Part shown: one piece after another, positions 24,653 through 41,060 of the stretch | Position numbering within the stretch: position 1 is the stretch's first letter | Layout of the letters: every line of letters begins with the position of its first letter | Assembly: GCA_937951485.1 (NCBI GenBank) | Contig: CALEDJ010000034.1 | Location: 1 to 64,000 of the forward strand | DNA: 64,000 nucleotides | Direction: 5' to 3' | Source of the DNA: an uncultured bacterium | GTDB taxonomy: Bacteria; Hydrogenedentota; Hydrogenedentia; Hydrogenedentales; CAILVY01 | Position numbers and translations under genes: made by a program | The notes under the pieces: generated by a model | Database searches by the model: none | What the model was told of the DNA's origin: nothing | The model's input: the letters and a program-made list of their open reading frames with translations, nothing else

Positions 24653-24873
24653 TACGTCAATCTTCCAGATACGAAAATCCACTCTGGATGTTTTCAAAAA
24701 TCATACTAATCATACGACAAAACCATTGACTATTGCTTGCCTTTCTGCTATGCTGACATCCGGGCAGTCAGTAGTGAGGCAGCAGTGATTGACGCTCACG
24801 GTTGGCAATGGCGGCATGAGTAAATGAACCATCATACTCACGTCCGCAGGCAGCAGAGGAGATGTGCAGGGCC

Positions 24874-27078
24874 ATGATTATTGAAAAAAGCGGCGTGCGG
24901 ATGACGATTTTTCTGGCATGTATTCTGGCGGGGGTCGCAGGAACGGCTGTGCCTGAAACCATTTACCGTTTCAGCCCGGCGACCGGGGCGATTCCCGTGA
25001 CATCAGAAAAAGTGCTGCCGCCCGGCGCACCGGATGATGTGGTCACCCACAACGGATTGACAGTCAATATTTTCTATATGGATATCCGGAACGATACCAA
25101 TATTGGTTTTGACAATGATGCGCCGACAGGACCGGCGGCCCAGGCGCGGTTGAGAGATGTGCTGATATACATCGCCAACACCTTCAATACGACCGGCACC
25201 CTGGATTTCCTGGTGCAGGCCTCGGAAAGCGATGGGACCGGTGCTTTGGCCAGTGCCGGAACCCTCTACAGCACAGCACCGGGTTGGCAAACCGGAGCCG
25301 CGTTGCATCGCCTGACTCATGGCGTCAAGCCTTTCGGACCGAATTATGAAGAAATGTATATGACGGTGGACTTCGGCTGGCCCTGGAACTTTACAACAAA
25401 CCCTCCGGGGATAACGCAGGTGGATTTCATGACCGTGCTGCTGCATGAAGCCACCCACGGACTCGGGTTTGTTTCTTTGAGCAATTCCACCGGAGGCAGC
25501 CAGATCGCGGCCAACGTCTATTCAGTATTTGACCAGTTTATTGTGCGTCGTGCGACCATGACGCCTTTGTTCAGCGGCAACCCGCCCAGTTTCGTGGGAA
25601 ATATCGCAGACCTCACCAGCAACGACCTGGCATGGTCCGGGCCGTCGGCATTCGCGCGCTACGGGCAGGGCGTGGCACCCGGAATCTATGCGCCCTCTCC
25701 CTGGGCGCCGGGCAGTAGTCTCAGTCATTGGGACACCGGAAACATTGTTGGCGGCGCGGTCATGGAACATGCCATCTCATTCGGCGCAATGCGGCGGCAA
25801 TGGGCGCCGGTGGACCTGGGTGGAATGATAGATTTTGGTCATGCCTGGCTCGCCGGCGAGGGCGAGGGCGAAGGCGAGGGTGAAGGGGAAGGAGAAGGAG
25901 AAGGAGAAGGAGAAGGCGAGGGTGAACGTGAATGCGTTGAATACGTCAGCACGAATGTGCCGCGGGTCATTGACTACTTGCTTGACCCTGTTACCGAATC
26001 CACGTTGAATGTGCCGGACGCGTTTTCCGTGGCCGATCTCAACGTCAAAATCAACATCAGTTATCCCATCGTGAACGACCTGACGGTAAATCTGCGCTCC
26101 CCCGTCGGCACGGAAATCACCCTTTTCTCGAACATCCCGCGACCGGGCGGAAATTTCTCCGAGACGATTCTGGATGACCAGGCGGAACTTTCCATCACAT
26201 CCGGCAATGCCCCATTTACAGGCTGCTTCCGTCCGCAGTCAAATCTTTCGGCGTTCAGCGGGATCAATGCCCAGGGCACCTGGCGCCTGCGCATCCAGAC
26301 GAATGATTTCTTCACGACCGGAACCCTGACGGGCTGGAGTCTGTATTTTGATTGTGAATGCCCGCTCGCTGGTGAAGGGGAAGGCGAAGGCGAGGGGGAA
26401 GGCGAAGGCGAGGGGGAAGGCGAAGGCGAGGGGGAAGAATGGTGCAGCCTGGCCTTCTGCCCGAATTTCGATGCCGAAGGCGCGGCATTCTATGAACTGC
26501 TCTCCATCGTCTTCGGTTTGCCACTGAATTGGGCAACCAGCGATGTGGACGGCATCGGTATTCCGGACAGTTGGGAAGTGGCAGTGCTGGAGCAGGTCAT
26601 ATGTCGCGGCGGGCACGCGCTCCGCAACCATGCGACCTGTGTGTTTCTGGAGAATCTGGAGACACTGCGGATGGAACCGGTCTATACACTGCAAGGGCTA
26701 TCCGTTTACGAAAACGTGATTGCCGGGCTGTTGTCCCTGGGTTCGGAAATGCAGAGCGCTATCACGACCCCGGCATTGGGGTTGACCAACACGTATAGAA
26801 CCATCGAATGGCCCTGGAAAACGGCGAATGAACCCTTCTCGCCGTTTGGGGACCCGGACGCGGATGGTCTGACCAACCTCGAGGAGTTCAACAACGTTCT
26901 GGCAGCCGGTACTGGTCGCACGCTCTACGTTATCGCGGTGCTCAGCCCATTGCTGGATGGTACGGAACCGGCGGGGGCGCTTCCCGTGGGCGGCGTGGGC
27001 GGTTTGGCCGTGTTGCTTGGCGCGCTGGCCGGCGCGGGTGGCGCGTGGACCCTCCACCGTAAACGCCGCAGGCAGTAA
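24874..27078 (+). CDS. Secreted zinc metalloprotease with P-domain, two Gly-Glu linkers and sorting tail
   Basis: A 734-residue exported protein. Signal peptide (IFLACILAGVAGTAVP). The protease-like domain spans residues ~50-325, with LLHEATHGLGF (~residue 190), the HExxHxxGF zinc motif, and GGAVMEHAIS as a possible Met-turn. Linker 1 covers ~327-351. A proprotein-convertase P-domain covers ~352-498 (NDLTVNLRSPVGTEITLF, GTWRLRIQTNDFFTTGTLTG). Linker 2 covers ~499-522. The C-terminal module ~523-734 is shared with the lectin-domain protein (DGIGIPDSWEVAVLEQVICR, DADGLTNLEEFNNV) and ends LPVGG-hydrophobic-HRKRRRQ. ATG at 24874 is preferred over 24862, which abuts the GAGGAG. Confidence 0.87.
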   Translation: MIIEKSGVRMTIFLACILAGVAGTAVPETIYRFSPATGAIPVTSEKVLPPGAPDDVVTHNGLTVNIFYMDIRNDTNIGFDNDAPTGPAAQARLRDVLIYIANTFNTTGTLDFLVQASESDGTGALASAGTLYSTAPGWQTGAALHRLTHGVKPFGPNYEEMYMTVDFGWPWNFTTNPPGITQVDFMTVLLHEATHGLGFVSLSNSTGGSQIAANVYSVFDQFIVRRATMTPLFSGNPPSFVGNIADLTSNDLAWSGPSAFARYGQGVAPGIYAPSPWAPGSSLSHWDTGNIVGGAVMEHAISFGAMRRQWAPVDLGGMIDFGHAWLAGEGEGEGEGEGEGEGEGEGEGEGERECVEYVSTNVPRVIDYLLDPVTESTLNVPDAFSVADLNVKINISYPIVNDLTVNLRSPVGTEITLFSNIPRPGGNFSETILDDQAELSITSGNAPFTGCFRPQSNLSAFSGINAQGTWRLRIQTNDFFTTGTLTGWSLYFDCECPLAGEGEGEGEGEGEGEGEGEGEGEEWCSLAFCPNFDAEGAAFYELLSIVFGLPLNWATSDVDGIGIPDSWEVAVLEQVICRGGHALRNHATCVFLENLETLRMEPVYTLQGLSVYENVIAGLLSLGSEMQSAITTPALGLTNTYRTIEWPWKTANEPFSPFGDPDADGLTNLEEFNNVLAAGTGRTLYVIAVLSPLLDGTEPAGALPVGGVGGLAVLLGALAGAGGAWTLHRKRRRQ
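25855..25926 (+). repeat. Gly-Glu linker repeat 1 of the metalloprotease
   Basis: Hexanucleotide repeats encode ~24 alternating Gly-Glu residues between protease and P-domain. Confidence 0.9.
26371..26438 (+). repeat. Gly-Glu linker repeat 2 of the metalloprotease
   Basis: Hexanucleotide repeats encode ~22 alternating Gly-Glu residues between the P-domain and the shared C-terminal module. Confidence 0.9.
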
Positions 27079-29193: not shown

Positions 29194-29222
29194 TTGACAT
29201 ATTCAATAAAAAATGGTATGGT
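29194..29222 (+). promoter_or_regulatory. Promoter of the rex-hyd operon
   Basis: TTGACA at 29194-29199 (perfect), 17-base spacer, TATGGT at 29217-29222 (4 of 6). It lies in the AT-rich end of the gap, 48 bases before rex. Confidence 0.75.
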
Positions 29223-29223
29223 C

Positions 29224-29241
29224 TTGTTACGAAATTAACAG
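29224..29241 (+). promoter_or_regulatory. Rex operator
   Basis: TTGTTA-CGAAAT-TAACAG fits the Rex consensus (TTGTTA, six bases, TAACAA) with one mismatch. It starts one base after the -10, covering the expected transcription start, so Rex binding should block initiation and be relieved when NADH is high. Confidence 0.8.
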
Positions 29242-29270
29242 CGTTTGTCAAGTAACAACAAGAAGGCGTT

Positions 29271-29969
29271 ATGATGGTCTCCAGTAACCCAGCCGGAAAA
29301 CGTTGCGTGAATCCACCTTCTGAGAGGACCGTGGAGCGGCTCAGCCGGTATCGGTATCTGCTTCATGAACTGAAGGTGGAGGGGGTGGGCTATGTCTTTT
29401 CCCATGCATTGGCGGAGATGGCGGCGGTCAGTGCGGCGCAGGTGCGCCAGGACATGATGGCGGTTGGGTATTCAGGCACGCCGGTGCAGGGCTATGAAGT
29501 GGAAAAACTGCTGGCGGCGTTGGAGGAGTTTCTGGAGGTGCCGGAGGGGAAGGATGTGGCGCTGGTGGGCGTGGGCAATCTGGGCTTGACGATTCTGAAA
29601 AGCCTTGTGGAATATCCAACACCGCTGCGTTTGTCGGTCGCTTTTGACGTGGACTGGCGTCTGGTGAATCGTCAGGTGCAGGGCTGTTGGTGCTATCCGG
29701 TGGAACAGTTGGTGGCGGTAGTGCGGGAGCGGCAGATTCCGATAGGGATCGTCGCGGTGCCGCCGAAGGCGGCGCAGGAGGTGGCGGACCTGCTTTGTGA
29801 AGGCGGCGTCAGCGGCATCTTGAACTGTGCGCCATTGCGGTTGCGGGTTCCTGAGCATGTGTATGTGAGCAACCTGAACATCATGGTTGCTTTGGAAAAG
29901 GTGTCCTATTTTGCGCATCGCAACCGGGCGCGGATGGAGTGTCCGGCCAGGGAGAGGATGAAGGCATGA
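29271..29969 (+). CDS. rex: Redox-sensing transcriptional repressor Rex
   Basis: A 232-residue Rex. The winged-helix N-terminus runs from SERTVERLSRYRYLLHELK through AAVSAAQVRQDMMAVGYSGT. The Rossmann NAD(H) domain carries VALVGVGNLGLTIL (residues ~95-108). GILNCAPLRLRVPEHVYVSN is typical of the C-terminus. Rex reads the NADH/NAD+ ratio. It is the first gene of the hydrogenase operon behind a Rex-box promoter, so it likely represses itself and hydCBA. The stop overlaps the start of hydC (ATGA). An ATG at 29274 is an alternative start. Confidence 0.95.
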   Translation: MMVSSNPAGKRCVNPPSERTVERLSRYRYLLHELKVEGVGYVFSHALAEMAAVSAAQVRQDMMAVGYSGTPVQGYEVEKLLAALEEFLEVPEGKDVALVGVGNLGLTILKSLVEYPTPLRLSVAFDVDWRLVNRQVQGCWCYPVEQLVAVVRERQIPIGIVAVPPKAAQEVADLLCEGGVSGILNCAPLRLRVPEHVYVSNLNIMVALEKVSYFAHRNRARMECPARERMKA

Positions 29970-30454
29970 CGACAGAAACGTTGGAGAAGCCCGACATCAA
30001 CGCGATTCTGGAGCGGCATCCGGACGCGGGGCGGGATGCGTTGATCCCGTTGTTGCAGGAGGTTCAGGAGGCATTCGGTTTCTTGTCGCGTGAGTCCGTG
30101 GTGGCCATTGGGCGTCACCTGGGATTGCCCGCCAGCAAGATCTACGGGGTGGCGACCTTCTACAACCAGTTTCGCTTTCAGCCATTGGGCAGGTATCACG
30201 TGCAGGTATGCCGTGGCACGGCGTGCCATGTGAAGGGGTCGTTCAATGTATTGACGGCGTTGAAACAGGCGCTGAAGGTGGAGGCGGGACAGACGACGCG
30301 GGATGGTCTATTCAGCCTGGAAGTGGTCGCGTGCCTGGGCGCATGCGGGCTGGCGCCGGTCATCACGGTGAATGGCGAGTTCTTTGCGGGGGTGACGCCA
30401 GCCAAGGTGGACAAGATCATCAGGGATTTCCGAAAAGAGGCAGAAGCATCATGA
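29966..30454 (+). CDS. hydC: [FeFe] hydrogenase subunit HydC (NuoE-like, 2Fe-2S)
   Basis: A 162-residue NuoE-family protein. The N-terminal helical bundle includes ALIPLLQEVQEAFGFLS and LGLPASKIYGVATFYNQF. The thioredoxin-like 2Fe-2S site has Cys pairs in VCRGTACHVKG and ACLGACGLAP. In trimeric bifurcating hydrogenases this subunit sits between HydB and the NAD site. The start at 29966 overlaps the rex stop and its own stop overlaps the hydB start, both ATGA, so translation is coupled. Confidence 0.93.
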   Translation: MTTETLEKPDINAILERHPDAGRDALIPLLQEVQEAFGFLSRESVVAIGRHLGLPASKIYGVATFYNQFRFQPLGRYHVQVCRGTACHVKGSFNVLTALKQALKVEAGQTTRDGLFSLEVVACLGACGLAPVITVNGEFFAGVTPAKVDKIIRDFRKEAEAS

Positions 30455-32493
30455 GCAATACAAACAAGATCGGACAGAAAGACGCGGGCGCGCACGGCGC
30501 GGATGCGGAATGCGCGGCGCTGGTGGCGGCGATCAAAGACGCAGCGGCGGGGAAACTGGACGCGGCGACAGCGGCGCGCCTTGCGGCGCTGCGCCGTGAA
30601 GACGTGTCGCGGCCTGTGATATTCGTCGGGGCGGGCACTTGCGGTCTCGGGGCGGGAGCACGCAAAACCCTCGATGCCATCAAGGCGTATCTGGCGGAGA
30701 AAAATATCGGTGCGGACGTGGTTGAGGTGGGTTGCATCGGCATCTGCTCGGCGGAGCCGCTTGTGGATGTGCAGTTGCCGGGGCGGACGCGGGTGTCTTT
30801 TGAGCATCTGAGCGCGGACAAGGTGGGCGCCTTGCTGGACGCCATGCTGGGGGGCGTGATGCCGACGGGGATGGCGCTGGGACAGTTCCGCTCCGAAAAA
30901 CTGACGCCATGGCCCGATGTGACGTATCTGGACGAACACCCGTTCTTTGCGCCGCAGACCCGCTGGGTATTATCGCAGTGCGGGGAAATGGATCCGCTGA
31001 GCCTCAGCGAATACATCGCGCACGGCGGCTACCAGGCAATGGCGAAGGCGCTGACGCAAATGACGCCGGAGGACGTCTGCGATGCCATCGAGAAAAGCGG
31101 CCTTCGCGGGCGCGGCGGCGGCGGCTTCCCGACGGGGCGCAAGTGGAAGTTCGCCCGCGCCACAAAGGGCGACAAGAAATATCTGATATGCAACGCGGAC
31201 GAGGGCGACCCCGGGGCGTTCATGGACCGCGCCGTGATCGAAAGCGCGCCGTACCGACTGCTGGAAGGCATGGCGATTGCCGCGTATGCCATCGGCGCGA
31301 AAAAAGCCTACATATACATTCGCGCGGAATATCCGCTGGCGATCAAACGCCTGGAAGCGACCATTGCCGAAGCCAAAAAACACGGGTTGCTCGGGGATTC
31401 CATCCTCGGCACCGATTTCGGCCTGGATCTTGTAATCAAGATGGGCGCCGGCGCGTTTGTCTGCGGTGAAGAAACCGCTTTGATCCACAGCGTAGAGGGA
31501 AAGCGGGGCATGCCGCGCCCGCGCCCGCCGTTCCCGGCGGTGCAGGGACTATTCGGCAAGCCGACCATCATCAACAACGTGGAAACGCTGGCGAACGTGC
31601 CGCCGATCCTGGCTGCGGGGGCGGAAGCCTATGCGGCGCTTGGCACTCAGGGGAGCAAAGGCACAAAAGTATTTGCTCTCTCCGGCAAGGTGGCGCGCAC
31701 CGGCCTGGTCGAGGTGGCGATGGGCACATCGGTGCGCAAGATTATCTATGATATCGGCGGGGGCATCCCGGATGACAAAGAATTCAAAGCGGTGCAGATG
31801 GGCGGCCCTTCCGGCGGCTGCATCCCCAAGCAGCATCTTGACATCGAGGTGGATTACGAGTCCTTGAAGTCCGTCGGGGCGATCATGGGGTCCGGCGGGA
31901 TGGTCGTCATGGACGAAGACAATTGCATGGTGGATGTGGCGAAATTTTTCATGGACTTCATCCAGCGTGAAAGTTGCGGGAAGTGTATCCCCTGCCGCGA
32001 AGGGACCCGCCGCATGCTGGAGATCCTGCAGCGGGCGACGCGCGGACAACGCAGTGAAAGCGGGGTGGATGCGCTGCGACGCTTTGAAGGCATGATTTAC
32101 CTCGAACGGCTGGCCAACGTGATCAAGGACACCAGCCTGTGCGGTCTGGGCCAGACGGCCCCCAACCCGATCCTGAGCACGCTGCGGTGGTTCCGGGACG
32201 AATATGAGGCGCATATCTACGAACGGCGCTGTCCCGCCGGCGTGTGCCAGGAACTTCGTCTCTTTCGTATCGATCAGGAGTTCTGCAAGGGCTGCATGCT
32301 GTGCCTCAAACGCTGCCCCAGCGGCGCCGTAATCGGAGAAGCGAAAAAGGCGCATTACATCCTCGCCGACAAGTGCATCGGTTGTGGCGCCTGCGCCGAC
32401 GTATGCCGTTCGGATGCCGTGCGGATCATGTCCTGGGAAGAACTGGATGAAATGGAAGCGGCCGGTGATTTGGCTGCCGAACCGTTGGCCTGA
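30451..32493 (+). CDS. hydB: [FeFe] hydrogenase subunit HydB (NuoF-like, FMN/NAD, Fe-S)
   Basis: A 680-residue protein. It has an N-terminal thioredoxin-like 2Fe-2S domain (GAGTCGLGAGARK ~ residue 60, VGCIGICSAEP ~ 90). The NuoF core has the FMN/NAD loop GRGGGGFPTGRKWKF (~220) and FVCGEETALIHSVEGKRGMP. The SLBB region is followed by the 4Fe-4S site ESCGKCIPCREGTRRM (~506). A C-terminal two-cluster ferredoxin follows (CKGCMLCLKRCP ~611, CIGCGACADVC ~641). It is expected to oxidise or reduce NAD(H) and, with HydA, couple ferredoxin and NADH to H2. Overlaps hydC by four bases. Confidence 0.95.
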   Translation: MSNTNKIGQKDAGAHGADAECAALVAAIKDAAAGKLDAATAARLAALRREDVSRPVIFVGAGTCGLGAGARKTLDAIKAYLAEKNIGADVVEVGCIGICSAEPLVDVQLPGRTRVSFEHLSADKVGALLDAMLGGVMPTGMALGQFRSEKLTPWPDVTYLDEHPFFAPQTRWVLSQCGEMDPLSLSEYIAHGGYQAMAKALTQMTPEDVCDAIEKSGLRGRGGGGFPTGRKWKFARATKGDKKYLICNADEGDPGAFMDRAVIESAPYRLLEGMAIAAYAIGAKKAYIYIRAEYPLAIKRLEATIAEAKKHGLLGDSILGTDFGLDLVIKMGAGAFVCGEETALIHSVEGKRGMPRPRPPFPAVQGLFGKPTIINNVETLANVPPILAAGAEAYAALGTQGSKGTKVFALSGKVARTGLVEVAMGTSVRKIIYDIGGGIPDDKEFKAVQMGGPSGGCIPKQHLDIEVDYESLKSVGAIMGSGGMVVMDEDNCMVDVAKFFMDFIQRESCGKCIPCREGTRRMLEILQRATRGQRSESGVDALRRFEGMIYLERLANVIKDTSLCGLGQTAPNPILSTLRWFRDEYEAHIYERRCPAGVCQELRLFRIDQEFCKGCMLCLKRCPSGAVIGEAKKAHYILADKCIGCGACADVCRSDAVRIMSWEELDEMEAAGDLAAEPLA

Positions 32494-32538
32494 GTCCGCC
32501 CCGAGGCGGAGAAAGACCCAGCAAGGAGCAAGACGAAC

Positions 32539-34263
32539 ATGGTGCAGATGGAAATCAACAAGCGGCCCTTCGAAGCACAGGAAGGGGAAACCATTCTGGA
32601 TGTGGTACGGCGGGCGGGCATCACCGTGCCCACCTTGTGCCACATCGAAGGACTGACCCCCACCGGGGCCTGCCGGGTCTGTGTGGTGGAAGTGGAGGGC
32701 ATGCCCGGTCTTGTGCCGAGTTGTTCCTACCCCGTGGCGCAGGGCATGAAGATTTACACCCATTCGCCCCGTGCCATCCGCGCCCGCAAAACCATCATCG
32801 AATTGCTGCTGGCAGACCATCCCGATGACTGCCTCTACTGTGTCCGCAACAACCGCTGCGATTTGCAGGGGCTGGCTGCGGATCTCGGCGTGCGCACCCA
32901 GCACTACGGGGGCGAAAAGAGCGCCTACAGGGAAGATGTATCGAGTCCGGCCATTATCCGCGATCCCAACAAATGCATTCTCTGCGGGAAGTGCGTTCGG
33001 GTCTGCGAGGAAATCCAGGGAGTTTCGGCGATTGACTTTATCGGGCGCGGCAGCCGGGCGCACATCGGCACGGCTTTCGATGAAGGGCTTAACGTATCGA
33101 GTTGCGTCAACTGCGGCCAGTGCATTCTGGTCTGTCCGACAGGCGCGCTTTCCGAACGGAGTTATGTAAAGGAAGTCCTGGAAGCGTTGAACAATCCCGA
33201 CCTGACCGTGGTCGTGAGCCATGCGCCAAGCGTATCCGTAACGCTGGGTGAGGAATTCGGCCTGCCTGCGGGCACCGATGTGGACGGGATCATGTGCGCC
33301 GCCTTGCGCCAGATTGGCTGCGACTATGTCTTTGATACGGCGTTCACGGCGGACCTTACCATCATGGAAGAAGGTTCGGAACTGGTGCACCGGATCAAGA
33401 ACGGGGGAGCCTTGCCGATGTTGACCAGTTGTTCGCCGGGCTGGATCAAGTTTGTCGAGGAATTCTATCCGGATCTTCTCGACAATCTGTCCACCTGCAA
33501 AAGCCCGCAACAAATGATGGGCGCGGTGATCAAGAGTTTCTTCGCGGAACGCATGGGATTGGACCCAAAGAGGATTTTCAGCGTTTCCATCATGCCGTGC
33601 ACCGCGAAGAAGTTTGAGGCGGCCCGCCCCGAAATGATGCACGAGGGGGAAACGCCGGATGTGGACGCTGTGCTGACCACGCGGGAACTGGCGCGGCTGT
33701 TTCGGATGCGCGGCATGGACCTCAAGACCATGGAACCGGAAACGGCGGACACCCCCTTCGGCGAGCGCACGACAGCCGGGAAGATATTCGGCGCGTCGGG
33801 CGGTGTCATGGAAGCGGCCATCCGCAGCGCGTACATGCTTATCACCGGCGAGGAACTGGGCGATCTGAATGTGAAGGCGGTGCGCGGCCTGGAGGGACGC
33901 AAGGAGGCGCGGCTGAACATCAATGGGCTTGACGTGGGCGTGGCGGTGGTGAGCGGCCTGGGCAATGCCGCAAAACTGCTGGATGAAATCCGGGCGGGCC
34001 GGAATGACCTGCATTTCGTTGAAGTGATGACGTGTCCGGGCGGCTGCATCGCGGGCGGCGGACAGCCCTTGGATACGGACCTGACATCGGTGCAGGCGCG
34101 GCTGCGCGCGCTGTATCAACTGGACGAAACCGAAACGAAGCGCACTTCGCACAGCAATGAATGGGTGCAGCGACTGTACAGGGAGTATCTGGGAGCGCCG
34201 CTGGGCGAGAAGAGCCACCACCTGTTGCACACCCATTATGCGAAGCGCGAAGTGCTGCTCTGA
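32539..34263 (+). CDS. hydA: [FeFe] hydrogenase catalytic subunit HydA
   Basis: A 574-residue catalytic subunit. Residues ~1-80 form a 2Fe-2S ferredoxin domain, followed by a His-Cys3-type cluster site (HPDDCLYCVRNNRCDLQ) and a two-cluster ferredoxin (CILCGKCVRVC, CVNCGQCILVC). The H-cluster domain has L1 TSCSPGWIKF (~295), L2 MPCTAKKFE (~352) and L3 MTCPGGCIAGGGQP (~496). The small-subunit tail ends near HSNEWVQRLYREYLG. The TSCSPGW form is, from recall, usual in trimeric NADH-linked enzymes. Maturases HydEFG are not in this window. GGAG lies upstream of the ATG. Confidence 0.96.
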   Translation: MVQMEINKRPFEAQEGETILDVVRRAGITVPTLCHIEGLTPTGACRVCVVEVEGMPGLVPSCSYPVAQGMKIYTHSPRAIRARKTIIELLLADHPDDCLYCVRNNRCDLQGLAADLGVRTQHYGGEKSAYREDVSSPAIIRDPNKCILCGKCVRVCEEIQGVSAIDFIGRGSRAHIGTAFDEGLNVSSCVNCGQCILVCPTGALSERSYVKEVLEALNNPDLTVVVSHAPSVSVTLGEEFGLPAGTDVDGIMCAALRQIGCDYVFDTAFTADLTIMEEGSELVHRIKNGGALPMLTSCSPGWIKFVEEFYPDLLDNLSTCKSPQQMMGAVIKSFFAERMGLDPKRIFSVSIMPCTAKKFEAARPEMMHEGETPDVDAVLTTRELARLFRMRGMDLKTMEPETADTPFGERTTAGKIFGASGGVMEAAIRSAYMLITGEELGDLNVKAVRGLEGRKEARLNINGLDVGVAVVSGLGNAAKLLDEIRAGRNDLHFVEVMTCPGGCIAGGGQPLDTDLTSVQARLRALYQLDETETKRTSHSNEWVQRLYREYLGAPLGEKSHHLLHTHYAKREVLL

Positions 34264-34299
34264 CGGAGCGGGGCACCGCGCCACCCGGGGAATCGCTCC

Positions 34300-36327
34300 A
34301 TGAGAAGTTCCAGCAACATACCGCTCGTCACCACGGTGAAGGAACGCTGCCGCGTATGCTTCACCTGTGTGCGCGAGTGCCCGGCGAAGGCCATCCGTAT
34401 TCTGGACGGCCAGGCCGAGGTGATGCCGGAGCGTTGCATCGGGTGCGGGAACTGCGTGCGCGTCTGCAGCCAACACGCCAAGCAGGTGCGCGACTGCACC
34501 GTCAACGCCAAAACCCTGCTTGCGGGGCATCTTCCGGTGGTGGCGTGCGTCGCCCCGAGTTTTCCCGCCGAATTCAGCGAATGCGATTACACGCAGTTTG
34601 TGGGCATGCTGCGTGCGTTGGGTTTCCACCACGTGCATGAAGTGGCGTTTGGGGCGGACCTGGTGGCCGCGCGTTACCGACGGCTGCTGGAGGAACACCC
34701 CCACGATCGCTTCATCGCCACCACCTGCCCCGCGGTGATCGCGTTTGTGGAACGTTACCACCCTGACCTGGTCTCCAAACTCGCGCCGATTGTGTCGCCG
34801 ATGGTAGCCACGGCCCGGGTGGTGAAGCGCATTCACGGCCCCAACGCCAAAGTGGTGTTCATCGGTCCGTGTATTGCCAAGAAAGGCGAGATGCTCAGCG
34901 CCATCCTGCCGAGGGAAGTCCACGCAACGCTTGCTTTCACCGAACTGCGCCGCATGCTCGACGCATACGGCATACGCCCGGAAAAGGTGGAAGGCAGCGA
35001 TTTCGATCCGCCACACGGCGGTTCAGGATCGCTGTTTCCCATCCGGGGGGGCCTCCTTCAGGCGGCGGACATGCGCGAGGACCTGATGGCGGGCACCGTG
35101 GTGACTGCGGATGGGAGATCGTCGTTTGTCGAGGCAATCCGCGAGTTTGAATCCCACGATCTCGACGTGGCGCTCCTGGAAGTGCTTGCCTGCCAGGGGT
35201 GCATTTCCGGGCCGGGGATTGACAACGACGCGCCGCTTTTTCGCCGTCGCAGTTGGGTGAGCCGACACGCCCGCCGCCGCGCTTCGGAGATTGACCACGC
35301 GCAATGGCTTCGCGACATGGAGCGCTTTTCAGACCTGGATTTGTCTCGTGAATTCGAAGCGGATGACCAGCGTGTCAGCGCGCCATCGGACGAGGAAGTG
35401 GTGCAAATCCTCGCCCGGATGGGCAAATTTTCGCAGGAGGACGAACTGAATTGCGGGGCGTGCGGCTATGAAAGTTGCCGAGAGCATGCCGTCGCCATTT
35501 ACAAGGGGCTGGCGGAATCCGAGATGTGTCTGCCATACATGATCGAACAACTCAAGCGGACAGTCCGGGATTTGGCGGTCAGTAACAAGGAATTGGCGCG
35601 GACGCAGCAGGCGCTGATGCAATCGGAGAAACTGGCGAGCATGGGCCAACTCGCGGCGGGCATTGCGCACGAGATTAATAATCCGCTGGGCGCGGTTCTC
35701 ATGTACGCCCACATGCTCAAGCGCGACTACAAGGACGACTCGCGTCTCAGCGCCGATATTTCGACCATTGCGGAGCAGGCCGACCGCTGCAAGAAAATCG
35801 TCGCAGGATTGTTGCATTTCGCGCGTCAGAACAAGGTGCAACTGCAACCGACTGATCTGAATGCACTTGTCCGAGAAAGCCTGAAAACAGTAAAAGTTGA
35901 CGATACCATCGCTATAGAACTTCAATTGGATATGCGGAATCCCGTCGCCGAACTGGATCGGGATCAAATCGCGCAGGTCCTCGGCAATCTGATCTCCAAC
36001 GCCTGCGCCGCCATGCCCGGGGGCGGCACGCTGACCATCGCGACTTGCGAGACCGACACACTGGTGGAGTTCCGGGTGAGTGATACCGGCACCGGTATTC
36101 CCAAGGAGAACCTCGCCAAAATATTCGAGCCGTTCTTTACCACCAAGCAAATCGGGAAAGGCACCGGCCTGGGCCTTTCCATTACATATGGCATTGTGAA
36201 AATGCATGGGGGAAACATCCGCGTGACGTCCAATGCGGACCCGCGAGAAGGCGCCACGGGAACCACGTTTTCCGTGACGCTGCCCCGGCATGGCAACCAA
36301 TACGCGGCGCGCGAAAGCGCCGTATAA
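34300..36327 (+). CDS. Histidine kinase with N-terminal [FeFe]-hydrogenase-like sensor domain
   Basis: A 675-residue protein. Two ferredoxin motifs come first (CRVCFTCVREC ~18-28, CIGCGNCVRVC ~47-57). The hydrogenase-like domain has ATTCPAVIAFVERYHPDL (~140), IGPCIAKKGE (~188) and LACQGCISGPG (~297). A 4Fe-4S domain with CGACGYESC (~385) follows. A coiled linker leads to the kinase, with H-box IAHEINNPL (~455-463), N-box LISNACAAM and G-boxes SDTGTGIP and GTGLGLS. Compared with HydA, the first L1 cysteine is replaced by Thr in the aligned register and L3 is C-x2-C, not C-x3-C. This fits a sensory, not catalytic, hydrogenase. No membrane span. It lies 36 bases after hydA. Confidence 0.93.
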   Translation: MRSSSNIPLVTTVKERCRVCFTCVRECPAKAIRILDGQAEVMPERCIGCGNCVRVCSQHAKQVRDCTVNAKTLLAGHLPVVACVAPSFPAEFSECDYTQFVGMLRALGFHHVHEVAFGADLVAARYRRLLEEHPHDRFIATTCPAVIAFVERYHPDLVSKLAPIVSPMVATARVVKRIHGPNAKVVFIGPCIAKKGEMLSAILPREVHATLAFTELRRMLDAYGIRPEKVEGSDFDPPHGGSGSLFPIRGGLLQAADMREDLMAGTVVTADGRSSFVEAIREFESHDLDVALLEVLACQGCISGPGIDNDAPLFRRRSWVSRHARRRASEIDHAQWLRDMERFSDLDLSREFEADDQRVSAPSDEEVVQILARMGKFSQEDELNCGACGYESCREHAVAIYKGLAESEMCLPYMIEQLKRTVRDLAVSNKELARTQQALMQSEKLASMGQLAAGIAHEINNPLGAVLMYAHMLKRDYKDDSRLSADISTIAEQADRCKKIVAGLLHFARQNKVQLQPTDLNALVRESLKTVKVDDTIAIELQLDMRNPVAELDRDQIAQVLGNLISNACAAMPGGGTLTIATCETDTLVEFRVSDTGTGIPKENLAKIFEPFFTTKQIGKGTGLGLSITYGIVKMHGGNIRVTSNADPREGATGTTFSVTLPRHGNQYAARESAV

Positions 36328-36349
36328 CGACAAGGAAATGGTGATCGTT

Positions 36350-36751
36350 ATGGACAAAGGCGAGGGAAAGCGCAATATACTGCTGGTGGACGACGACGAG
36401 GATTTTGTATTTCAACTCAAGACCCAGTTGGAGGCCGCCGGCTACGAAGTTGCGGTCGCCCACACCGCCAGGACCGCGATGGAACGCCTGGCCGAGCGCC
36501 GGCCGGACCTCTGCATTCTGGACCTTATGATGGAAAAGCCGGATGTCGGATTTACGCTGTGTTACCGTATCAAGAAGAAAGACGCCGCCATACCCGTCAT
36601 CATGGTCACGTCCGTCACCAGTGAAACCAGCATTGACTTTGACGCCACGACCAAAGAAGAACGATCGTGGATCAAGGCGGACGCCTTGCTGGACAAGCCG
36701 GTGCGGTTTGAACAGTTGCAACGTGAAATTGCACGATTGTTGAGAGGGTAG
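36350..36751 (+). CDS. Stand-alone response-regulator receiver protein
   Basis: A 133-residue single receiver domain. The acidic triad is in ILLVDDDEDF, the phospho-acceptor Asp in LCILDLMME, and Thr and Lys in VIMVTSVTS and ALLDKPV. Nothing follows the receiver, so it has no DNA-binding or enzymatic output. AAGGA at 36332-36336 supports the ATG at 36350, though 36338 is an in-frame alternative. It lies between the hydrogenase-like kinase and the receiver-kinase gene, suggesting a relay step. Confidence 0.9.
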   Translation: MDKGEGKRNILLVDDDEDFVFQLKTQLEAAGYEVAVAHTARTAMERLAERRPDLCILDLMMEKPDVGFTLCYRIKKKDAAIPVIMVTSVTSETSIDFDATTKEERSWIKADALLDKPVRFEQLQREIARLLRG

Positions 36752-36755
36752 CGTC

Positions 36756-37895
36756 ATGGACGCTCTGCGTGTGCTGGTAGTGGACGATGAACTGTGGATA
36801 CGGAGCGCGGTGGCACGCGACCTTTCCGAGTACATCGTCAACATTCCCGACATCAACGAGAGCGTCAGGTTTGTGGTTGATGAGGCGGAGACCGGCGAGG
36901 AGGCGCTGGAAAAAATCGCCGCCGCCCCGCCGGACATCGTATTGCTGGACCTCAAATTGCCGGGAATCAGCGGCCTGGACGTGCTTGAGAGGGCGGCCGG
37001 AAAACACCCCGACACGGTGTTCGTCATGGTTACCGCCTACGCCAGCATCGAGACGGCGGTACGCGCCACCAAGAGCGGCGCGTATGATTTTCTCGCAAAG
37101 CCGTTTACCCCGGACGAACTGGAACACGTGGTTCAGAAAGTGGCGCGCCATATCGTGATTGCCTCCCGCGCCAAATCGCTTGCGGAGGAGCAGCGTAAGG
37201 TCCGTTTTCAATTCATCTCCGTGCTGGCCCACGAACTCAAGGCCCCCCTCAACGCCATCGAAGGCTACGTTTCAGCGATCATCGAGCGGTCCGCCGGTGC
37301 GGATCAGCGCATTTATGATGAGATGCTGTTGAGATGCCGCACCCGCACGCGCTTCATGCGTAAACTGATCATTGACCTGCTCGACCTGACGCGCCTGGAA
37401 TCCGGAGAGAAGAAACGCGAACTCGTGGAAGTGGATTTGCGCGCAGTTGCGCAGGCCGCGCTCGAAACGGCCGCCCCGGACGCCGCCGCCCGCAGCATTG
37501 CTCTGCATGTGGAGGGGGATGCCCCGGTGCTGCTGAGAGCGGACCGCAGCGAGATGGAAATCATTTTCAACAACCTTGTCTCGAATGCCGTCAAATACAA
37601 CAAAGATGGCGGCGTCGTGAAGGTCCGCATTGCGCGCCAGGACGACAAGGTTCATGTCAGCGTCTCCGATACGGGAATCGGCATGACTCCTGATGAAGTG
37701 CAACGACTTTTTCAGCCGTTCGTGCGCATCAAAAATGACAAGACGGTCGGCATTCTGGGGAGTGGACTCGGGTTGACCATTATTCGCAAGATCGCAGCGA
37801 TGTATGAGGGCGATGTCTCCGTGGACAGCGAAGAGGGTAAGGGCAGCGTATTCAACGTGTTTCTCCGTGACGCGGCCCCTGTGGCGGCGCCCTGA
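36756..37895 (+). CDS. Receiver-histidine kinase hybrid
   Basis: A 379-residue soluble protein. Receiver domain covers residues 1-~125 (VLVVDDELW, phospho-Asp in IVLLDLKLPGISGLD, Lys in DFLAKPF). After a short helix the kinase starts with H-box VLAHELKAPLNAIEGY (~152-167), N-box NNLVSNAVKYN and G-boxes SDTGIGM and GSGLGLT. The receiver-first arrangement suggests its kinase activity is controlled by phosphate from an upstream kinase, most simply the hydrogenase-like one. It starts 5 bases after the receiver gene. Confidence 0.93.
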   Translation: MDALRVLVVDDELWIRSAVARDLSEYIVNIPDINESVRFVVDEAETGEEALEKIAAAPPDIVLLDLKLPGISGLDVLERAAGKHPDTVFVMVTAYASIETAVRATKSGAYDFLAKPFTPDELEHVVQKVARHIVIASRAKSLAEEQRKVRFQFISVLAHELKAPLNAIEGYVSAIIERSAGADQRIYDEMLLRCRTRTRFMRKLIIDLLDLTRLESGEKKRELVEVDLRAVAQAALETAAPDAAARSIALHVEGDAPVLLRADRSEMEIIFNNLVSNAVKYNKDGGVVKVRIARQDDKVHVSVSDTGIGMTPDEVQRLFQPFVRIKNDKTVGILGSGLGLTIIRKIAAMYEGDVSVDSEEGKGSVFNVFLRDAAPVAAP

Positions 37896-37969
37896 TCACC
37901 AGGCAACGAGCAAAAGCAACGTGTCTTGGGCTATACTACCCGAGGAGCCAACAGGGAAGGACGTTTACT

Positions 37970-38362
37970 ATGGGCGATGCGAAGACGATTCTGGTGATTG
38001 ATGACGACCCCGACGTCCACTTTTTCTGCAAAAGCGTCCTCGAAGCCGAGGGATTCCGCGTCATCACGGCCGCCGGCGGCGCATCGGGACTCGCGGCGTT
38101 CCGGGCGGAAAAGCCCGATCTCATTATTCTGGACATCATGATGGAACGCATTGACACCGGTTATGGCGTTGCGGAAGAAATCGGCAAATCCGTTCCGATC
38201 CTGCTGTTTTCCTCCATGCTCAATCCTTCCGATGAAACCTTTGATCCCGCTGTCGTCCCCTTCAGTGATGTGGTGCGAAAACCAATTGAACCCGAAACCC
38301 TTCTCAACAAGGTGCGCAAACTCCTGGCTTGCGGCAAAGAACAACCCGGGCGCCTGCCCTGA
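37970..38362 (+). CDS. Second stand-alone receiver protein
   Basis: A 130-residue receiver domain (ILVIDDDPD, phospho-Asp in LIILDIMME, Lys in VVRKPI). GGAAGG lies before the ATG. No output domain. Similar in kind to the 36350-36751 product. It is the last gene of the presumed sensing operon, and the 75-base gap before it could hold a second promoter. Confidence 0.9.
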   Translation: MGDAKTILVIDDDPDVHFFCKSVLEAEGFRVITAAGGASGLAAFRAEKPDLIILDIMMERIDTGYGVAEEIGKSVPILLFSSMLNPSDETFDPAVVPFSDVVRKPIEPETLLNKVRKLLACGKEQPGRLP

Positions 38363-38474
38363 TAGGTCTTATCTCCATTGTCTCTGTGCACCGCCGGAAT
38401 ACCTCGACCAATAGAACACAACCGGCATGTCATTGATTTGTTTGCAGCACCGGCAAACAGGGAGAAAACAGGCA

Positions 38475-41060
38475 ATGAATCGCTTTCTACTTGGTGTGTT
38501 GATGGGTTCCCTGGGAACTCTTTCGGCATGGACGGAGGAATCCTGGCTGGAGGCGCGGGAATACGGTGAAGTGCAAGTGGTGGTTGCGGCGGATGCGCAC
38601 GAAAACGACCGGCTGGCCGCCCAGGAGTTTGCGTCATATTGGGAAAAGGCCACCGGGCATTCGGTGGCCGTCGGGCATACTCCCGGCATGGGCGTCAATG
38701 CATGGATTGGGGTCAAAGGACTTCCGGAGTCGCTCCTCGAAGGGATTGACCTGGCGGCGCTCGCGCCGGACGGCCTGCATATTCGCAGCCATGCATCTCC
38801 GCCCGTAGGCCGCAAGGCGCTTGTGATTGTGGGGGCGGGCGACCGGGGCACGCTGAATGGCGTGTACGAATTCTTTGAACGCTTCATCGGGGTGCGCTGG
38901 CTGGCCCCGGGAGTTACGTTTGTCCCCGCGCCGCCGCAGGCGCCCTTGCCGGCACAGGCGGCCCCCTGGGAACGGAACACTCCCAGCGTCCTGCCCGCAA
39001 TGGATTTTTCCTATGTGTCGCCGTTTCACTACCGATGGACCGTTCATGAGTCGTCGGAGGATGCCTTTGCCCGGCCGCATCGCCTGACGCAATATCCCGG
39101 TTTCGGCCTCTGGGTACACACGCTTTTCACCCTGTTGCCGCCGGAACAGTATTTTGCCGAACATCCGGAATATTATTCGGAAATTGAGGGGGAACGGGTG
39201 GCTCCGGCCGGGTTGGCCTGGTACAGTTTCCCCATCAGCGCGGAAATGTGGCGCGACCACGGACACCGCTTTGCGCAATTGTGTTTCACGAATCCTGACG
39301 CAGCCGATGTGGTGGCGCAGAATCTTCTGGAACGTATCCGGGCGAATCCCGAACCGCGCATCTGGAGCGTGTCGCAGATGGATTGGGGCGGGTACTGCCA
39401 ATGCGCGGCGTGCGCCGCCGTCAATGAGGCCGAAGGCAGTCCAATGGGGTCATTGCTTCTGTTTGTGAACCGCGTGGCGGAGAGGGTCGAGAAAGAATTC
39501 CCGCATCACTTCATAGAAACGCTGGCCTATACATGGTCGCGCCGGTTGCCCAAGACGGTGCGTCCACGGGACAATGTCATCATCCGGCTGTGTTCAATCG
39601 AATGCGATTTTGCCCGGCCGCTGAACGATCCTGCGTCGTTGGAAAACCAATGGTTTGCCCGTGACATTCGCGACTGGTCGCAGGCGGCGAAGCAGTTGTA
39701 CATCTGGGACTATACCGTCAATTTTCACCACTATCACCTGCCACATCCCAACCTCAATGTATTGCAGGAAAACATGCAGTTCTTCGCGGAACACAAGGTG
39801 CGCGGGGTGTTCGAGCAGGGTTTGGGCGCGCCCCGTGTTGATCTGGGCTATATCCGGCCTTATCTGCTGGCGCGGCTGCTCTGGAATCCCCATCTCGATT
39901 ATGCGGCCGCCAAAGAAGAATTCATTGACCTGTTCTACCGTGAAACCGCCCCGCATTATCGCCGCTATCTGGACCTAATCCACGACGCCGTGCGCGAAAA
40001 GAACTGGCGAATGGACACCTTCGATCGCGGCGGCTGGATTACGAAAACACTGGTTGAGGAAGCGCGTGACGTTTTGAACGAAGCGATGGAAACGGCCACA
40101 TCCGAAGAGATTCGGGAGCGTATTCGCTATGAATTGCTTTCGGTGGAATATGCGGCGCTCGTGGCGCCGCCCGATGTGCGCATTGACGGTAAAACCTTTG
40201 TGCTGGAATGGCCGGAGAGCATGTCCGTCGAGGCATATGTTGCAATGGCGAAATCCTTCGGCGCGCCGGAATTTGCTGAAGGCCGTCCCATTGACGCCTT
40301 GCCGCAGCGCGTGACAACCCGCGCGCATCACCGCGAGTCATACCCCATCGCAAGCATTGAAAACAGTCGGTATGAACTCTGGGTGACACCGGGGTTGGAA
40401 GGTTCGATTATCCGCTGGCGCGACAAACAGCACGGGCTGGAACTGATTGACGGGTTCCGAAGTTATGGCGTCCGCCCGAGCACGTGGCAGGATTGGCAGA
40501 ATACGCCGTTCGTTGCGGAAAAGCCTGCTGCGCGGCGTTACGATGTGGTTGAAGCGACGCCCCATCGCCTGTGCCTCCGCGCAACACTGGACAGCGGACT
40601 GATCGTCCAGCGCACCATGACGCTGGAAGCGGAAGCCGACCGGCTGCATGTGGCGCTTGAACTGCACAACCCCACGGTGGCGCCCCTGGACGCATCCATC
40701 AAATCCCATCCGGAATTTTATGACCAAGGCGGCCATGTGCCGGAACTATGGGGCCAAAAAGACGGGGAATGGCGGCGCCTGGACGCAGCCCCGGGACTCC
40801 CGCCCCGCATGGCGCATGGCGAATACCTCCCCGCCGCAGGTGTTTCGGCATTGGCTTTCCACATAGAACCCGAAAAGGTGACGGTGGTTTGCGAATTCCA
40901 GCCTGAAAACGTCGAAGGACTGCTCTGGTTCTTCAACGCATCACGGGATGCGCAACAGGTCAACCTCGAACTATTGCCGCCGACCACTCCGTTGGCGCCC
41001 GGCGCATCCATTGTGCTGCAGGCCGATTACTACGTCACCAGAGAGAGGCCGGGCGGCTGA
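38475..41060 (+). CDS. Secreted DUF4838-domain protein (putative polysaccharide-active)
   Basis: An 861-residue protein with a signal peptide from the ATG at 38475 (GGGAG upstream). The N-terminal domain resembles the alpha-glucuronidase-type N-domain (NDRLAAQEFASYWEKATGHS, GTLNGVYEFFERFIGVRWLA). DUF4838 follows (~residues 240-500), recognisable by CQCAACAAVNEAEGSPMGSL and LAYTWSRRLPKTVRPRDNVI. The C-terminal ~250 residues are beta-rich and resemble a galactose-mutarotase-like domain. DUF4838 proteins occur in polysaccharide utilisation loci. The exact activity is unknown. Confidence 0.85.
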   Translation: MNRFLLGVLMGSLGTLSAWTEESWLEAREYGEVQVVVAADAHENDRLAAQEFASYWEKATGHSVAVGHTPGMGVNAWIGVKGLPESLLEGIDLAALAPDGLHIRSHASPPVGRKALVIVGAGDRGTLNGVYEFFERFIGVRWLAPGVTFVPAPPQAPLPAQAAPWERNTPSVLPAMDFSYVSPFHYRWTVHESSEDAFARPHRLTQYPGFGLWVHTLFTLLPPEQYFAEHPEYYSEIEGERVAPAGLAWYSFPISAEMWRDHGHRFAQLCFTNPDAADVVAQNLLERIRANPEPRIWSVSQMDWGGYCQCAACAAVNEAEGSPMGSLLLFVNRVAERVEKEFPHHFIETLAYTWSRRLPKTVRPRDNVIIRLCSIECDFARPLNDPASLENQWFARDIRDWSQAAKQLYIWDYTVNFHHYHLPHPNLNVLQENMQFFAEHKVRGVFEQGLGAPRVDLGYIRPYLLARLLWNPHLDYAAAKEEFIDLFYRETAPHYRRYLDLIHDAVREKNWRMDTFDRGGWITKTLVEEARDVLNEAMETATSEEIRERIRYELLSVEYAALVAPPDVRIDGKTFVLEWPESMSVEAYVAMAKSFGAPEFAEGRPIDALPQRVTTRAHHRESYPIASIENSRYELWVTPGLEGSIIRWRDKQHGLELIDGFRSYGVRPSTWQDWQNTPFVAEKPAARRYDVVEATPHRLCLRATLDSGLIVQRTMTLEAEADRLHVALELHNPTVAPLDASIKSHPEFYDQGGHVPELWGQKDGEWRRLDAAPGLPPRMAHGEYLPAAGVSALAFHIEPEKVTVVCEFQPENVEGLLWFFNASRDAQQVNLELLPPTTPLAPGASIVLQADYYVTRERPGG

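Follow-up and report, generated by a model that had tools for sequence, protein, structure and literature searches.

A putative H2-sensing phosphorelay encoded in one gene run with an NADH-dependent [FeFe] hydrogenase in an uncultured Hydrogenedentota bacterium

Introduction

The question raised by the locus described here is what might be sensed by a histidine kinase whose sensor resembles an [FeFe] hydrogenase and whose gene lies in the same run as those of an [FeFe] hydrogenase, and by what route its signal might act when only receiver and receiver-kinase genes come after it. The locus occupies positions 29194-38362 of a 64,000-nucleotide stretch of DNA (the window; contig CALEDJ010000034.1 of assembly GCA_937951485.1, positions 1 to 64,000 of the forward strand) from an uncultured bacterium of the Hydrogenedentota. 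The reading preferred here, which is given a probability of about 60%, is that a cytoplasmic phosphorelay sensing H2, or a redox state linked to H2, would be encoded in one run with the hydrogenase that it adjusts.

Histidine kinase-linked [FeFe] hydrogenases are listed as putative group C1 in HydDB (PMC5037454), and in 2024 53 group C1 proteins with a HATPase domain were reported from Hydrogenedentota, 21 of them next to group A3 genes (PMC11406978). The presence of an H-cluster in C1 was doubted in that study since the motifs were hardly found, and the term "response regulator" is absent from its main text. Sensory [FeFe] hydrogenases have long been proposed; their signal output has been stated as open (PMC8163306), and "little direct physiological evidence" was noted for these proteins (PMC8924675).

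Organization of the gene run

Open reading frame calls and NCBIfam and Pfam scans of the window placed eight genes on the + strand at 29271-38362, in the order that a first-pass annotation had read from the letters of the window (rex-hydC-hydB-hydA, sensor kinase, receiver, receiver-kinase, receiver). The intergenic gaps range from -4 to 74 bases, the lower end being as claimed there and the upper end being 74 instead of 75. The first gene, rex (29271-29969), encodes a redox-sensing repressor (NF003995, 176.9 bits; cut-off, 126) and is followed by hydC (29966-30454) for a NuoE-like [2Fe-2S] subunit and hydB (30451-32493) for a NuoF-like FMN/NADH subunit with a C-terminal ferredoxin domain, both assigned by NCBIfam and Pfam. 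The product of hydA (32539-34263) scored 828.4 bits with NF040763, above the curated cut-off of 765 bits, and was assigned as the catalytic subunit of an NADH-dependent group A6 [FeFe] hydrogenase, HydABC. Next come the sensor kinase gene, here called HK1 (34300-36327), and the genes for a single-domain receiver, REC1 (36350-36751), a receiver joined to a complete kinase, REC-HK (36756-37895; D65 and H159), and a second single-domain receiver, REC3 (37970-38362), the last three assigned by Pfam. The open reading frame of REC1 opens at 36290, and the ATG at 36350, which is preceded by AAGGA, was taken as the start, from which the phospho-Asp is counted as D58.

The NCBIfam and Pfam scans revealed neither a PAS nor a DNA-binding or any other output domain in the four final genes, which agrees with the earlier statement that the last three lack a DNA-binding or output domain; beyond that statement, the middle one of the three, REC-HK, is a full second kinase with a receiver at its N terminus. 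Chance adjacency of the genes was ruled out by conservation of gene order: because the order recurs in metagenome-assembled genomes (MAGs) of a dozen-odd phylum-level names, adjacency is far above chance.

Sensor kinase HK1

HK1 consists of 675 residues with, by Pfam, two Fer4 domains, an H-domain (Fe_hyd_lg_C, 156.8 bits; cut-off, 22.1), an FeS domain (PF04060), HisKA and HATPase_c, so that its description as a kinase with an [FeFe]-hydrogenase-like sensor and Fe-S clusters was borne out. The C-terminal four-cysteine FeS domain is fused straight to the kinase part, in which PF00512 and PF02518 scored above cut-off and H457 is invariant in all 82 aligned HK1 sensors. Sixteen cysteines are likewise invariant in 82/82. 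Eight of them make up two N-terminal [4Fe-4S] cluster motifs; C385, C388, C393 and C410 form the motif Cx2Cx4Cx16C; and the H-cluster ligands C143, C191, C298 and C301 are all kept. The H-domain motifs read TTCP at L1, GPCIAKK at L2 and EVLACQGCISGPG at L3, and the L2 lysine, K194, is invariant across phyla. The proton-transfer cysteine of group A (C299 of CpI) is replaced, L1 being mostly TTCP or TSCP and never having Cys before the ligand. The position of CpI M353 is Gly (GPC of L2, 82/82), as in TmHydS, and that of M497 is Leu, as in TamHydS (PMC8163306). Group C sensors carry a PAS domain after the FeS domain, and none was found in HK1 (Pfam, E 0.001); HK1 shares the lack of PAS with group D (M2e) but has Gly, not Ser/Thr, at the M353 position in 82/82. 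HK1 is predicted to be a soluble, cytoplasmic kinase; no transmembrane helix is likely in it (maximum 19-residue hydropathy, 1.4).

An AlphaFold2 model of HK1 had a mean predicted local distance difference test score (pLDDT) of 81, and residues of the H-domain mostly exceeded 90. Among solved [FeFe] hydrogenases, its H-domain was superposed on CbA5H with a Z score of 41.2 (2.4 Å over 345 residues) and on CpI (4xdc) with a Z score of 38.3; this comparison covers mainly residues 2-359, and the kinase half is described by Pfam and by Foldseek matches to ZraS. In a maximum-likelihood tree of H-domains, which was built without the named references TmHydS and TamHydS, HK1 was placed, as a group C protein would be, with sensory PAS-type and long sensors, apart from group A and group B-like sequences (100/95), and it formed a single clade in 88% of bootstrap trees.

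The first-pass claim of sensing at an H-cluster-like site is backed in part, by the ligand cysteines and by the tree, and is weakened at L3. HK1 has CxGC there in 82/82, one residue shorter than the CxxxC spacing of group C, which each of the other 38 [FeFe] sequences in the comparison shows (15 sensors of PAS type and 4 long ones, 4 group B-like and 15 group A). Attachment of the [2Fe] subcluster may therefore be altered or absent, and this contraction may be regarded as the main doubt about H-cluster occupancy of HK1. An unlikely alternative is that HK1 is a redox sensor devoid of the [2Fe] subcluster, whose lone [4Fe-4S] cluster in the H-domain would report the ferredoxin or NADH pool and not H2. 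It would accord with the contraction in every HK1, with the scarcely detectable motifs of Hydrogenedentota group C1 (PMC11406978) and with the HydA subunit of NiFe-HydABCSL, where a [4Fe-4S] cluster in place of the H-cluster is known (PMC9304861), but it fits poorly with four ligand cysteines and a K194 that are invariant across phyla, since loss of the diiron site should leave the bridging cysteine free to vary, and with the repeated linkage of the sensor to maturases and to two hydrogenase types described below.

Other builds of [FeFe] sensor were read by eye from their domains in three fetched loci: one fused with a methyl-accepting chemotaxis-like part (L167:1621-3504), one joined to a hybrid kinase, after which come two receivers and an apparent Hpt (L168:1799-5404), and one fused with a PAS-kinase-receiver part (L155:3105-6560).

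Distribution of the module

A single scan yielded 493 relatives of HK1, of which the best 80 loci (57-66% identity) were analysed and 79 were scored for neighbourhood; the fractions given here thus describe the close family, not all 493 relatives. The MAG names of the 80 loci include Planctomycetota, Hydrogenedentota, Latescibacterota, Acidobacteria, Deltaproteobacteria, Myxococcales, Armatimonadetes, Lentisphaerae, Marinimicrobia, Caldisericia, Eisenbacteria, Glassbacteria and Hyd24-12. Among testable loci, REC-HK lies downstream of HK1 in 62/66, hydA within 1.5 kb upstream of HK1 in 61/73, a receiver on either flank in 53/63, rex upstream in 28/45, and the H-cluster maturation genes (hydE, hydG, hydF and aspA) downstream in 28/44. 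No output regulator was conserved beside the module in the 79 scored loci.

No genome bearing HK1 and lacking a catalytic [FeFe] hydrogenase was found in 60 phylum genomes, and among 294 Planctomycetota genomes a group A hydrogenase was present in every genome that gave an HK1-type match. One candidate for an HK1 genome without hydA (G062, locus L033) was rejected, as its contig begins 1 base before REC1; moreover, a near-identical locus (L048) has hydA immediately upstream.

It is also conceivable, though improbable, that the receivers are mere phosphate sinks or feedback elements with the true target elsewhere, or that the kinase genes merely travel with the hydrogenase operon. Three genes without an output domain, and the occurrence of the HK1/REC-HK pair also where no hydA is nearby, would suit such a role, which is at odds with how strictly the catalytic residues and the pair itself are conserved across phyla.

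Relay proteins and co-variation

The receiver active site of REC-HK and its second phospho-acceptor, H159, are invariant in 86/86 sequences, and the phospho-Asp of REC1 is kept in 73/73; in both receiver families the catalytic residues vary little or not at all. By closest class, the kinase half of HK1 matches AtoS/ZraS, the receiver of REC-HK matches AtoC, LuxO and NtrC, the second kinase, that of REC-HK, matches PnpS/PhoR, and REC1 and REC3 match OmpR/PhoB-class receivers. Co-variation of distances was calculated over 33-70 related loci out of the best 80 of 493, a biased sample, in which the kinase of HK1 and the receiver of REC-HK formed the top kinase-receiver pair (r = 0.66-0.70). REC1 followed HydA (r = 0.57-0.59) more than either kinase domain (0.11-0.38), and this held in partial correlations, with 0.46-0.60 for REC1 and HydA given HK1 and -0.17 to 0.13 for REC1 and kinase given HydA. 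Over all genes, two blocks were obtained, one of hydA, hydB, hydC and REC1 and the other of HK1 and REC-HK.

The family classes and the co-variation together suggest the order sensor kinase, receiver-kinase, single receivers. The retained catalytic residues agree with the phosphorelay proposed in the first-pass annotation, and the direction of transfer is what class match and co-variation would indicate. The data also suggest that REC1, the main receiver, is inherited with the hydrogenase and not with the kinases. In two loci (L029 and L038) REC1 closes the hydCBA operon and HK1-REC-HK is divergent, and in three others (L149, L157 and L158) hydC-hydB-hydA-type genes are headed by a gene for a related single-domain receiver, no HK1 being found within the stretch fetched for L157 and L158. 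Most single receivers adjoining hydrogenases have MME two residues past the phospho-Asp. The two blocks and this placement of REC1 suggest that the kinases constitute the sensing unit and the single receivers the output on the hydrogenase side.

As a side observation, HydG distances in loci L013-L092 correlate better with those of HK1 (r 0.43, 30 loci) than with those of HydA (r 0.17, 24 loci), which hints weakly that the maturases may belong to the sensor.

Copy of the sensor pair beside a [NiFe] hydrogenase

Two genomes from the family of the window (G041 and G046) yielded the same loci as MAGs named Candidatus Hydrogenedentota (L142 = L050, L143 = L061), which assigns the window to that phylum. 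The genome to which the window belongs holds three HK1 copies. In one locus (L010, contig 39), an HK1 paralogue followed by a REC-HK faces a [NiFe] hydrogenase operon that encodes NuoEF-like and HoxU-like proteins, a small subunit, a VhuA-like large subunit and, in frame at the end of the operon, a fusion of maturation protease and receiver (L010:13059-13901). Residues 10-146 of the fusion match TIGR00072, the hydrogenase maturation protease superfamily (71.6 bits; cut-off, 47.45), the remainder is a receiver, and REC3 is related to this receiver. Downstream of the [NiFe] operon lie hydG, aspA, hydF and hydE, with the three maturases all scoring above cut-off. The same fusion was found in another genome of the same family (L061/L143; L061:4312-5217), and in L068 the maturation protease and the receiver are separate neighbouring genes. 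The third HK1 copy (L011:5167-7182) is an orphan with no receiver-kinase or hydrogenase genes close by.

Through the fusion, control of [NiFe] maturation by phosphorylation is possible. Because the same sensor pair adjoins hydrogenases of unrelated metal type, hydrogen is the probable common factor, and the position of the pair beside two metal types would be hard to explain otherwise.

Promoter and transcriptional control

Between 28900 and 38600, the sole good sigma-70-type promoter on the + strand, identified by consensus match, is at 29194-29222 (TTGACA, a spacer of 17 nucleotides and TATGGT, with TG ahead of the second hexamer), and the start of 29194 given for the run in the first-pass annotation coincides with its -35 hexamer. 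Directly past the -10 hexamer, at 29224-29240 on the + strand, lies a candidate Rex-type operator, TTGTTACGAAATTAACA, an inverted repeat of the form that Rex proteins bind elsewhere among bacteria. The window has this sequence once against 0 expected, its only exact match in the 4.55-Mb genome is at this promoter, and the fetched loci, 1.78 Mb in all, hold a single match, 51 bp ahead of a further rex. The box is not general, the same form having been found only in L058 among the fetched loci. Terminator-like sites inside the run are no commoner than in shuffled sequence, and the run would be one Rex-autoregulated transcript.

A sigma-54 promoter was searched for upstream of the window operon, and none was found. 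In four fetched loci (L020, L025, L062 and L063) an NtrC-type sigma-54 activator divergent from hydC replaces rex (L020:1861-5387); it is accompanied by a Cache-domain kinase in L020 and L062, and a -24/-12-like promoter lies ahead of hydC in L020 and L025.

Single-domain receivers can act as relay intermediates, as in the Spo0F pathway, and REC1 and REC3 might accordingly pass phosphate to an unlinked Hpt protein or DNA-binding regulator that switches the hydrogenase genes. This is judged somewhat unlikely. Besides the Spo0F-like role, the divergent NtrC-type regulator of some Planctomycetota loci, of which two have a -24/-12-like promoter ahead of hydC, would favour transcriptional control. 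Against it stand the lack of a conserved output regulator next to the module, the inheritance of REC1 with HydABC and not with the kinases, the fusion of one receiver to a maturation protease, and the Rex-type operator at the operon promoter.

Outside the run, a large exported-looking protein of unrelated type is encoded on the same strand at 38427-41060, 64 bases past REC3, where read-through from the operon is possible, and at 24862-27078 is encoded a protein that looks secreted, contains long GEGEGE repeats and has at its C terminus a hydrophobic anchor with a basic end.

Discussion

In the preferred reading, binding or turnover of H2 at the H-cluster-like site of HK1 would alter its redox or conformational state, the C-terminal FeS domain would hand this change to the kinase, and HK1, being AtoS/ZraS-like, would phosphorylate the NtrC-class receiver of REC-HK. 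The phosphorylated receiver would in turn control the second, PhoR-like kinase, which would feed REC1 and REC3. As neither of these two has a DNA-binding domain and REC1 shares its inheritance with HydABC, the output would most likely be contact of a receiver with the hydrogenase or its maturation, in keeping with the earlier suggestion of action by protein contact, and transcription of the operon would be set separately by Rex from NADH/NAD+. H-cluster occupancy, the direction of phosphotransfer and the contact output are all inferred from comparison of sequences, as is H2 as the signal in preference to general redox state.

The link of the sensor to hydrogen is strengthened in part, by its occurrence with two unrelated hydrogenase types and with H-cluster maturases. 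Several points weigh against the reading, among them the contracted L3 and the bias of the co-variation sample noted above. In the sampled genomes HK1 always accompanies a catalytic [FeFe] hydrogenase, save in the one MAG that is cut at a contig edge, so that the maturases are no proof of maturation of HK1. In the related TamHydS, H2 fails to reduce the C-terminal FeS cluster (PMC13104023), and coupling in HK1 may therefore be conformational and not by electron transfer.

HK1 probably falls in group C1, to which proteins of this build, an H-domain with a C-terminal HATPase, were assigned in Hydrogenedentota (HydDB; PMC11406978). The fused sensor class beside HydABC is thus already known, and the joining of the kinase to hydABC has a precedent. 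Compared with group C1 as published, the present data add the invariance of the ligands with a shortened L3, a relay of REC and REC-HK that is conserved, a copy linked to a [NiFe] hydrogenase and the fusion of a protease with a receiver. In other mentions of C1 (Cloacimonadota and Vallitalea) the kinases are separate neighbouring genes. The literature searched, from which subscription journals are largely absent, yielded no description of the relay as a conserved set, of ligands that are invariant yet contracted at L3, of a copy linked to a [NiFe] hydrogenase, of a maturation protease fused to a receiver or of the co-inheritance of receiver and hydrogenase.

The motif Cx2Cx4Cx16C is known from sensory hydrogenases of groups C and D (PMC8163306). 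Two putative sensory enzymes, TmHydS of group C (M2f) and TamHydS of group D (M2e), share with HK1 this domain, two N-terminal [4Fe-4S] motifs, an H-domain without the group A proton-transfer cysteine and genes near a group A hydrogenase; a PAS domain is present in TmHydS and TamHydS lacks a fused output, whereas HK1 is fused directly to HisKA/HATPase and has CxGC. In the regulatory [NiFe] hydrogenase system HoxBC-HoxJ-HoxA of Ralstonia (group 2b in HydDB), a hydrogenase-like H2 sensor is similarly coupled to a histidine kinase governing hydrogenases, but its metal site and fold are unrelated to those of HK1. HoxA is a DNA-binding regulator, and the HK1 run has only receiver and receiver-kinase proteins after the sensor. 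Rex-controlled hydABC operons likewise have rex as first gene and a Rex-type operator at the promoter; here the run extends into a sensor kinase relay.

We tentatively propose, at rather less than even odds, that an [FeFe]-hydrogenase kinase, lacking PAS and remodelled at its H-cluster site, acts through a receiver-kinase on single-domain receivers that would bind the hydrogenase or a maturation protease, as a widespread post-translational control of [FeFe] and [NiFe] hydrogenases by H2. Sensor and kinase form one fused protein here, whose likely downstream partners are named and conserved, the proteins concerned being four small soluble ones. The recurrent set looks like a conserved circuit for hydrogen sensing and enzyme adjustment, and would offer a route from H2 level to hydrogenase control that needs no DNA-binding regulator, in anaerobes of many uncultured phyla.

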